Assembly: GCA_028283605.1 (NCBI GenBank)
Contig: JAPWKH010000018.1
Location: 186,001-250,000, forward strand
Length of the DNA: 64,000 nucleotides
Source of the DNA: Arachidicoccus sp.
Lineage (GTDB): Bacteria > Bacteroidota > Bacteroidia > Chitinophagales > Chitinophagaceae
Reading direction: 5' to 3'
How positions within the stretch are numbered: the stretch's first letter is position 1; each line of letters begins with the position of its first letter. The notes below the pieces were generated by a model. It was not told the DNA's origin. It was given only the letters and a program-made list of their open reading frames with translations, and did no database searches. The translations under genes and the position numbers were made by a program. Positions 24,015 to 26,715 of this stretch are shown here, one piece after another.

Positions 24015-25208
24015 CTATTTTATCGCTGCAATTCCGGGCAGAATTTTTCCTTCAAAAAACTCTAATAAAGCGCCACCGCCGGTAGATACATGACTTATTT
24101 TATCTGCTAAATTAAATTTATTTACCGCTGCTACACTATCACCGCCGCCGACTAATGAGAATGCTCCGGCCTGGGTAGCTTTAGCCACTGCTTCTGCTAT
24201 GCACTTTGTTCCGTTTTGGAATTTCTCCATTTCGAAAACGCCCATAGGGCCGTTCCATAAAATAGTTTTAGAATGAAGTATTACGTTTGTAAAAGCATTT
24301 TGGGCATCTTCCGCAATATCAAGCCCCATCCAGCCGTCTGGAATATTATTGCTGGGTGAGGAAGATGTTTCCGCATCTTCCGCGAATTTATTTGCTATAA
24401 TGGAATCGCTGGGTAAGTGAATGCATACGCCTTTTTCTTCCGCTTTTTTAAGTAGTTCCTTCGCGGTGGATAAACGATCTTCTTCGCAAAGAGAATTGCC
24501 GATGTTGCCGCCTAAAGCTTTGAAAAATGTATATGCCATACCACCGCCGATAATAATATCCGTTGCTTTGTCCAAAAGATTTTCCAGTATCAGTATTTTG
24601 TCTGAAACTTTTGCTCCGCCAATGATTGCAACAAAAGGTTTCTCCGTTTTGTGCAATACTTTTTCTGCACTGGATACTTCAGCTTCCATTAACAATCCGA
24701 AGAATTTTTTATCTGAAGGAAAATAATCTGCTACGATTGCTGTGGAAGCATGCGCACGGTGCGCTGTACCGAAAGCATCATTTACATATACATCGCCGTA
24801 TTTGCTTAATTTTTCTGCGAAAGATTTATCTCCTTTTTCTTCTTCAGGATAGAAGCGGAGGTTTTCTAATAGTAAAACTTCGCCGGGTTGCAGGTCTTTT
24901 GCTTTATTGGCAGCATCTTCCCCAATGCAATCAGAAGCAAATTGTATCTGTTTGTCTAGTAATTGACTCAAGCGTTGCAATACATGTTTTAAGGAATATT
25001 TTTCTTCAGGGCCGCCTTTCGGTCTTCCTAAGTGGCTCATTAAAATTACGCTTCCGCCGTCGTTCAATATTTTGTTGATGGTTGGTAATGTGGCGCGAAT
25101 GCGTGTATCGTCGGTAATTTCAAATGTAGTTTTGTCTAAAGGAACATTAAAATCTACTCTGATCAACGCTTTTTCATTTGCAAAGGAATGTTCTGTAAAT
25201 CGGCTCAT
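24015..25208 (-). CDS. pgk: phosphoglycerate kinase
   Basis: A 397-residue glycolytic enzyme converting 1,3-bisphosphoglycerate and ADP to 3-phosphoglycerate and ATP. The substrate site RVDFNVP, the SHLGRPKG loop, the [12 protein letters not shown] signature and the C-terminal nucleotide-site GGGDSVAAV with [14 protein letters not shown] are intact. Length is normal. It is a single transcription unit: downstream is a shared terminator with dnaB, upstream a 367-bp gap with a GC-rich element. A TATCTTTA sequence on the minus strand before the start is close to the -7 consensus but one base off. Confidence 0.97.
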
Positions 25209-25327
25209 AATATTTTTTCTTTACTGTGTACTTTTTAATGGGCGTAAAGATAGAAAATTGTAAACAAGTAAGCGGGATGTATATGATTATTTAATGACAG
25301 AGAGAGAATGAACACTTGGAAAATGCG

Positions 25328-25500
25328 TTGAGCGCGCGAGGGATAGTAAGGGTGCGACAGAGTGGTGCGTGCAGACACGCGCCACGGCAGAGCAGTGCGA
25401 AGTGCAATGGAGTACCAGAGCGAAGCGTAGCCCTGCATAGCCCGACGGCAAGCGTATTTTGGTTTTTGCAAAAGTATGGTAAGCTTGCCGGCGCGCCCAA
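25328..25500. other. GC-rich structured element (candidate ncRNA or dispersed intergenic repeat)
   Basis: The core 25361-25440 has 49 G/C of 80 bases (61 percent) inside an AT-rich gap. Outer arms TTGAGCGCGC (25328-25337) and GCGCGCCCAA (25491-25500) pair with one mismatch. Inside are a 10-bp hairpin with one G-U pair and a CAGA loop (25362-25371 with 25376-25385), a GCAGAGC/GCCCTGC pair with one mismatch (25387-25393, 25430-25436), and an 8-bp stem CGGCAAGC/GCTTGCCG (25446-25453, 25483-25490) with an inner TTTTG/CAAAA pair. GGGATAG (25340-25346) and ATAGCCC (25437-25443) are reminiscent, from memory, of intergenic repeats in this phylum. Strand and function are unknown. Confidence 0.55.
25362..25385. 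other. 10-bp hairpin with tetraloop inside the GC-rich element
   Basis: GTGGTGCGTG and CACGCGCCAC pair fully (nine Watson-Crick, one G-U as RNA) around the loop CAGA. It is one of the strongest local helices in the window and has no T run, so it is not a terminator. Confidence 0.6.
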
Positions 25501-25575
25501 AATGTATATTAATTGATCTTAAAGATTGCATTAATTTTTAACGTGTGCAGATAAATTTTCTGCTTAAATTTACAA

Positions 25576-26715
25576 ATGCCTTTTACAATTTTAAAACGGC
25601 TTACGCGCAATCTACTGTTGATCCCGACAATATTGGCTGCATTTGTATTTTTGGGAGCTTGCCTGGCTTCGGAGCTCGACCCGAAAACATGGTGGTTTAT
25701 AGGGCTGCTCGGTTTGCTGTTGCCTTATTTGATCGTATTAATGTTGCTGGCATTTATTTTTTGGCTAATGATAAAGCCTGTGTATTGCCTCATTCCGCTG
25801 TTAGTATTGATGATTGGTTGGCGGCAATTATCGGTAGTGTTTTCGTATCATATATTCAATAGCTTTCATACGGATATTAAAGGGCGGAATACTTTGCGTG
25901 TTGTAAGCTGGAATGTAGGCAGCATGTATGGAATGAAAAATAACAGCGCAGCTAAAAAGCACGACAGAAGAGAGATCGTGAGCAGTATTTTGAATTTGCA
26001 GCCGGATATAATTTGCCTGCAGGAATTCAGCAATTCCGAAACGCAGGGAAAGGAGGCGGATAATATCGGGTTGTTTAAGAAGGATTATCCATATTATTTT
26101 TACTCGAAAGATTTGAATAAGCGTAATGGTTATTACCAATCCGGCAGCATAATTTTTTCAAAATTTCCAATTATAGATTCTGCTAAAATTAAATATCCGA
26201 AAGGGATATCAGAGAGTTTTATTTACGCAGATATTTTACATGGAGAAGATACTTTCAGAGTCTTTGATGTACACTTGCAATCGTATAAATTTTCAGCTCA
26301 GGATTATGCAGACATAGGCGCTATAAAAAAGCAATCCGATTCTACATGGAAAGCCTCCATAAGCTTGATGAATAAAATGCAGCTTGCTTACGCAAGGCGT
26401 GGCGTGCAAGCCGATATGATCCGCAATTTCAGCGACAGTACAAAATTTAAAAGCATTATCTGCGGCGATTTTAATGATGTGCCGGGTTCGTATACTTATT
26501 TTAAAATACGCGGCGAAAGACAAGATGCTTTTTTGAAAAAGAACTGGGGCATTGGAAGAACGTATTACTCCATTGCACCAACTTTACGAATAGATTATAT
26601 ATTGCCGGACAGGAATTTTAACGTTAATCAATTTGATATTGTAGATGAAGATTTGAGTGATCACTTAATGCTTGTGAGCGATTTACAAGTGAAACAAATT
26701 ACAAATTCCCGCTGA
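25576..26715 (+). CDS. membrane-anchored endonuclease/exonuclease/phosphatase family protein
   Basis: A 379-residue protein with an N-terminal membrane region of about three helices (residues 10-95) and a C-terminal EEP (DNase I-like) metallo-phosphodiesterase domain. The domain motifs are visible: RVVSWNVGSM, PDIICLQEFSN with the catalytic Glu, DVHLQSY, ICGDFNDVPGSYTY and DYILPD ending with the SDHLM histidine. The EEP domain should face the periplasm or outside. Members act on nucleic acids, phospholipids or phosphoinositides; the substrate cannot be told here. The 3' end overlaps the convergent lipoprotein gene by 17 bp. Confidence 0.85.
   Translation: MPFTILKRLTRNLLLIPTILAAFVFLGACLASELDPKTWWFIGLLGLLLPYLIVLMLLAFIFWLMIKPVYCLIPLLVLMIGWRQLSVVFSYHIFNSFHTDIKGRNTLRVVSWNVGSMYGMKNNSAAKKHDRREIVSSILNLQPDIICLQEFSNSETQGKEADNIGLFKKDYPYYFYSKDLNKRNGYYQSGSIIFSKFPIIDSAKIKYPKGISESFIYADILHGEDTFRVFDVHLQSYKFSAQDYADIGAIKKQSDSTWKASISLMNKMQLAYARRGVQADMIRNFSDSTKFKSIICGDFNDVPGSYTYFKIRGERQDAFLKKNWGIGRTYYSIAPTLRIDYILPDRNFNVNQFDIVDEDLSDHLMLVSDLQVKQITNSR

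Follow-up and report, generated by a model that had tools for sequence, protein, structure and literature searches.

Rfam files Flavo-1 (RF01705) as an sRNA. REP palindromes carry a GTAG or CGTC tag at their foot, and the core sites of integron attC read RYYYAAC ... GTTRRRY. Flavo-1 is listed for Bacteroidetes with its function unknown (PMC2864571); in F. psychrophilum, some of its matches are described in 5' transcribed regions, matches sense and antisense to transcripts occurring alike and many lying outside transcripts (PMC9723704). The element described here, which in the open-licence papers searched was not found described as a whole and of which pieces of 10–14 bases were absent from the same papers, shares features with several of these systems and extends one of them.

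The element lies on the + strand at positions 25325–25500 (GCGTTGAG ... CGCCCAA) of a 64,000-nucleotide stretch of an Arachidicoccus sp. genome, here called the window, between two divergent genes, pgk, which starts at 25208 on the − strand, and an EEP-family gene starting at 25576 on the + strand. It is repeated over the same extent in the genome, with sharp ends of conservation over 133 copies. The original prediction, made from the window sequence, had placed a folded block at 25328–25500; the block is real, and its true start is moved to 25325. The predicted GC content of 49 of 80 bases at 25361–25440 is exact, and over the whole element the count is 104/176, against 33/116 and 16/75 in the two flanks. 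Judged by the block's own sequence, the verdict that it is not a terminator holds. A protein-coding block was rejected, in agreement with the original prediction: the open frames over it are mechanical, and the family copies differ in length and interior.

The family plan is a three-way junction in which the element ends pair (P1) and enclose an arm (P2) and a hairpin (P3). In the aligned copies the order is P1 (GCGTG/CACGC) at the extreme ends, P2 (GGGATAG ... ATAGCCC), GA and then P3, and all parts of the window copy are given here for the + strand. Its P1 is formed by 25334–25338 and 25492–25496, with a C-G pair where 48 of the 50 aligned copies have T-A. This register, common to the family, differs from the outer arms first proposed (25328–25337/25491–25500), 9 of whose 10 pairs are present in the sequence; owing to a GCGCGCG run, both registers are possible in the window copy. 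The outer stem of P2 joins 25340–25345 (GGGATA) to 25438–25443 (TAGCCC), and the arm contains an A-opposite-G mismatch that is conserved in the family. For both P1 and the outer P2 stem, pairing is seen in the sequence and covariation in both alignments described below. Inside lies the inner stem of P2, 25349–25352/25431–25434, found in the 50-copy alignment, where its second pair occurs as four Watson-Crick types. The inner pair proposed earlier, 25387–25393/25430–25436, is present with 6 of 7 pairs but is not the inner stem of the family.

The interior of P2 is variable, being either of the window type (AAGGG ... CCCT with extra hairpins) or of the Flavo-1 type (AGCGG ... AGCGG). The extra hairpin of the window copy, at 25362–25385, was predicted correctly, with 10 pairs between 25362–25371 and 25376–25385, one of them G-T, and a CAGA loop. 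Eight copies in the same genome carried the lead-in sequence and six of these had a loop ending in AGA; over the six, 53/60 cells are paired, compared with 3–34 when the arms are slid, and two-sided changes occur at four positions. The P3 hairpin spans 25446–25490, and its predicted stem (25446–25453/25483–25490) has all 8 pairs. Stem and loop of P3 are both free in sequence across the family, and the stem varies yet pairs, with four of the five modelled pairs changing on both sides in the 59-copy set.

We built a covariance model from an alignment of 50 copies, in which 92.1% of cells pair (81.2% after shuffling) and the covariation is 0.272, compared with 0.104 for shuffled alignments and at most 0.074 for slid structures. 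The 5' arm is biased in this alignment because 5'-arm patterns served to retrieve or anchor 41 of the copies. A second set comprised 59 model-found copies outside model building; none of them duplicates a row of the first set, and one pair is about 0.91 alike. Here 89.1% of cells pair (76.5% shuffled), two-sided changes occur at 15 of 19 pairs and the covariation is 0.328 (0.116 shuffled; slid structures ≤0.066), in an alignment that was fitted to the structure and hence leans toward it. The compensatory changes that the original prediction called for are thus found in both sets. One P2 position (columns 23/196) has a non-standard pair, mostly G-A, in 50 of the 59 rows. Over all modelled pairs of the 59-copy set, G-T outnumbers A-C on the + strand by 24 to 14, or by 10 to 4 once the two poorest columns (23 and 24) are left out, a weak hint from wobble counts that the + strand may be the one that folds, as RNA or as single-stranded DNA.

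The window copy by itself folds better than its shuffled versions on either strand, with z −2.96 as + strand RNA (3/200 shuffles as good), z −3.44 as + strand DNA (0/200) and z −3.38 as − strand RNA (0/200). As single-stranded DNA, its minimum fold is the family three-way junction, with P1 in the register of the original prediction; in the default RNA minimum fold the family junction is not formed. Homology, that is, repeats in the genome combined with a covarying fold, is a stronger test than shuffled folding.

Comparison with the known RNA models gave no Rfam family match for the window copy, even at an E value of 10 for Flavo-1, and the copy fails the Flavo-1 gathering score of 42 bits. That threshold is passed by 10 loci of the family, 6/20 and 4/15 in two scans (L234, L236, L299, L302, L244 and L200; L078, L090, L079 and L091), always at the same place on the element, while the other 25 loci tested, the window copy's among them, fall below it; two variants from the same genome, L023 and L022, score 22.6 and 20. 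Because these 10 loci pass, Flavo-1 and the element family overlap, and since the window copy stays below the threshold, Rfam's rule does not admit it to Flavo-1. The likeness falls on the P2 side of the element only: the Flavo-1 model is 76 nt long and includes neither the closing stem P1 nor the P3 hairpin, and the window-type P2 differs from it in its inner stem and extra hairpins. At one of the passing loci (L244, 302–412 and 1501–1589), a copy of the element is located some 1.1 kb past a 5S rRNA gene.

Searching the same genome with 25300–25520 returned 29 matching pieces, several of them fragments of one copy, and the covariance model gave 27 matches at E 0.01 or better. Four of five congeners had no model match and the fifth had one weak match (E 0.004). 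In one congener (G004, L032 1500–1560 and 1730–1760) we observed repeated gene ends with short GGCGCGTGT...ACACGCGCC hairpins between them. Model matches were found in 20 of 59 relatives, the genome itself included, and in at least 33 of 198 genomes sampled across the phylum; the phylum counts are floors, with weak matches lost, because 16 candidates only were scored per genome. One genus, by inference Flavobacterium, had matches in 55 of 61 genomes, with up to 46 each. An exact 19-base signature hit 20 loci in named genomes, all Bacteroidota (18 titled Flavobacterium or Flavobacteriaceae, 1 other Bacteroidota and 1 Ilyomonas). The likeness to dispersed intergenic Bacteroidota elements that the original prediction pointed out is thus borne out by the 27 matches, the signature loci and the covarying stems, and both further copies and covariation, on which the original prediction hung, are present.

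The family extends to plasmids and viral contigs. Among 72,556 plasmid records the element core matched 38, all but two of them (36) from Bacteroides, Parabacteroides or Phocaeicola. A stretch of pBF9343 including its copy matched 82 plasmid records, all from Bacteroidales genera, and 31 records were matched over 80% of this 141-base query, part of which is flank. The pBF9343 copy (L251 3001–3076), found on conjugative Bacteroides plasmids, has its end at a recombinase gene's stop codon; an ArdC-like gene lies near it on these plasmids. In the viral collection, 94 loci carry a 15-base signature, and 10 of them carry 13 model matches. The window copy itself had no match among the plasmid records or the INPHARED phage records.

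The element is dispersed, ends sharply and keeps its fold, has multiplied within genomes and is present in some and absent from other related species. Two copies in the Arachidicoccus genome (L002 and L004) are identical at 172/179 positions, whereas outside them only 10 nt are alike on the right side and the left side gives a weak local score; the second-closest pair is 83.5% identical, and the median pairwise identity over 22 copies is 64%. Another genome (G306) has five identical 93-nt copies whose left flanks are partly common (about 29 to 120 bp); of their right flanks, two are runs of N and the three readable ones are unrelated. In G122, the copies at two loci (L328 427–582 and L329 427–582) share their left flank and P2; their P3 hairpins, each self-complementary, differ, and their right flanks are unrelated. 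Conservation over 133 of the 134 copies pooled is limited by P1 on the left and, on the right, by CC with three A-rich positions. In the 60 nt on either side of the pooled copies, no promoter or terminator common to them was found. No target-site duplication stands out in their flanks, the best excess over permuted flanks (10 vs 3.7) being that of a 3-mer whose offset does not adjoin the ends. Synteny of the pgk–EEP pair was not seen in the five congeners, so that they provide no empty site for the window copy, and no clean empty site was found among the plasmids aligned, a subset.

To the neighbourhood of the element we devoted a survey of 71 loci from other genomes and viral contigs, two of which have identical flanks, using mechanical gene calls. 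A stop codon lies within 10 bp of the element end, overlaps included, in 12/40 cases at the 3' end and 8/31 at the 5' end; the corresponding counts for start codons are 2/26 and 1/38. The orientations relative to the neighbouring genes were 30 −−, 20 ++, 9 +− and 5 −+. Copies adjoining a convergent gene end were also seen (L328). The Arachidicoccus genome differs, with 8 of its 22 listed copies, those in the 50-copy alignment, lying between divergent genes, like the window copy.

A single conserved site bears on whether the fold matters in place. The genes pdxJ and hydrolase are adjacent in 46 of 59 genomes examined (of 61); the gap between them contains the element in 5 of the 46, and is 10 bp or less, or an overlap, in 27. 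Two more copies lie after a pdxJ gene that does not have the hydrolase as its neighbour. The 13 distinct pdxJ-linked copies, 7 of them found through a 5'-arm pattern, have a covariation of 0.288 (0.081 shuffled), with P1 broken in two; at the pdxJ site of three species, all three arm changes are compensated and none is broken. Because of this covariation and these compensated changes, the fold may be kept in place and not only during movement. Its retention can reflect function in place, independent or repeated insertions, or hairpin-templated correction. AT-rich repeats of the type TTTTAGATTTTAGATTGCAG were also seen to fill the pdxJ–hydrolase gap in several genomes of the inferred Flavobacterium genus (L256, L257, L261, L286, L290 and L304).

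Among the three guesses of the original prediction, a mobile repeat is the best supported, a structured ncRNA remains a candidate and an attachment site has no support in the present analysis. At the 5' end of the window copy stands GTTGAGC, but reading by eye found no RYYYAAC partner in attC order; 111 copies from other genomes show no conservation of the left-end GTT. The likeness to a MITE is closer, as the element is short and non-coding and has sharp boundaries and inverted ends, with P1 as the terminal inverted repeats; it differs in the lack of a target duplication, in the conservation of its internal fold and in that no parent transposon was found, in a search that covered Y1 only. The reading that we hold most plausible, if tentatively, is a non-autonomous mobile DNA of about 80–200 bp, MITE/REP-like in habit, whose fold would be important for its spread. 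It is supported by the sharp ends, the near-identical copies at unrelated places, the presence or absence at one gene pair and the positions directly after stop codons. The copies on plasmids, the covarying fold, the family junction as the minimum fold of the window copy's single-stranded DNA and the Flavo-1 matches of F. psychrophilum in either sense and outside transcripts also speak for it. Against it count the lack of a target duplication and the failure to find a mobilising gene, Y1 transposases not tracking the element. What weighs most against a pure passenger is the covariation at pdxJ, which hints at a local function.

Covariation, strong in the family and also found at this single site, would fit a functional structured RNA, a UTR element or sRNA that is dispersed and acts as RNA at each of its sites. 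Such a role would accord with the excess of G-T over A-C on the + strand and the conserved A-G and G-A mismatches, which point to one strand; + single-stranded DNA, however, would give the same wobble bias. The placing of Flavo-1 among the sRNAs and the 5'-transcribed matches in F. psychrophilum favour an RNA, but there the matches occur in either sense and are often untranscribed, no promoter or terminator travels with the element, both orientations to neighbouring genes occur and most congeners lack it, so we consider this explanation possible but on the unlikely side. A still less probable alternative is a host element acting at the DNA level, by binding a nucleoid, replication or termination factor or by blocking transcription, and spread by conversion and duplication. 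Ends near stop codons in both orientations, copies beside a convergent gene end and retention at the pdxJ site in several species would suit it, whereas the 8 of 22 copies between divergent genes and the patchy occurrence among close relatives would not. In a separate test of strand bias against replication, with dnaA taken as the origin, 150 of the 187 matches in ten genomes divide 87 to 63 between the replication strands (p 0.06); the counts are heterogeneous, with one genome (G287) reversed and another (G224) at 9 vs 0, and the base skew sampled in two genomes failed to track dnaA.

We consider it very improbable that the element is a REP moved by a RAYT/IS200-type Y1 transposase. Like REP/BIME sequences, it is dispersed, folded intergenic DNA without target duplication, and Y1 genes are common in the relatives (41/59). 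It is nevertheless larger, three-armed and divergent within a genome (the median of 64% given above), and the REP foot is not seen at its ends, the GTAG/CGTC tag being absent from the end consensus of the pooled copies. Y1 as the mobiliser was rejected across the 61 genomes, where PF01797 was the sole model used for detection: the element is present in 17/20 genomes without Y1 and 38/41 with it, and the genome richest in the element (46 matches) has no Y1 gene. The 59 relatives likewise showed no link between Y1 and the element. The single Y1 gene of the Arachidicoccus genome (C11:102890–103231; L030 1489–1947) is of IS200 size, with GTTCC/GGAAC hairpins alongside that are unlike the element. 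By a loose hand count, on which we base no conclusion, weak RAYT-like Y1 matches (~185–200 aa) occur in 10/20 element-bearing and 11/39 element-free genomes among these relatives.

For the mobile DNA that we favour, we propose an enzyme supplied in trans that recognises the folded strand as single-stranded or extruded DNA, most likely the strand reading GGGATAG...ATAGCCC. The enzyme would copy this strand into the borders of genes, in many cases directly after a stop codon, and this process would be what selects the fold. More speculatively, and with less confidence than we give to mobility itself, there may be a Bacteroidota-wide mobile class with a folded single-strand (DNA or RNA) three-way junction as the substrate of an unrecognised trans-acting enzyme, Flavo-1 being one arm, exchanged among chromosomes, plasmids and phage-like contigs. 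The window copy, between two divergent promoters, is probably a passenger. The element extends the known orphan motif Flavo-1 and is most likely non-autonomous mobile DNA. An orphan structured motif without a function since 2010, Flavo-1 now becomes part of a bounded, dispersed, three-armed element, and this view of the whole element shifts the question to what moves it, which strand folds and how important single copies are for the neighbouring genes.
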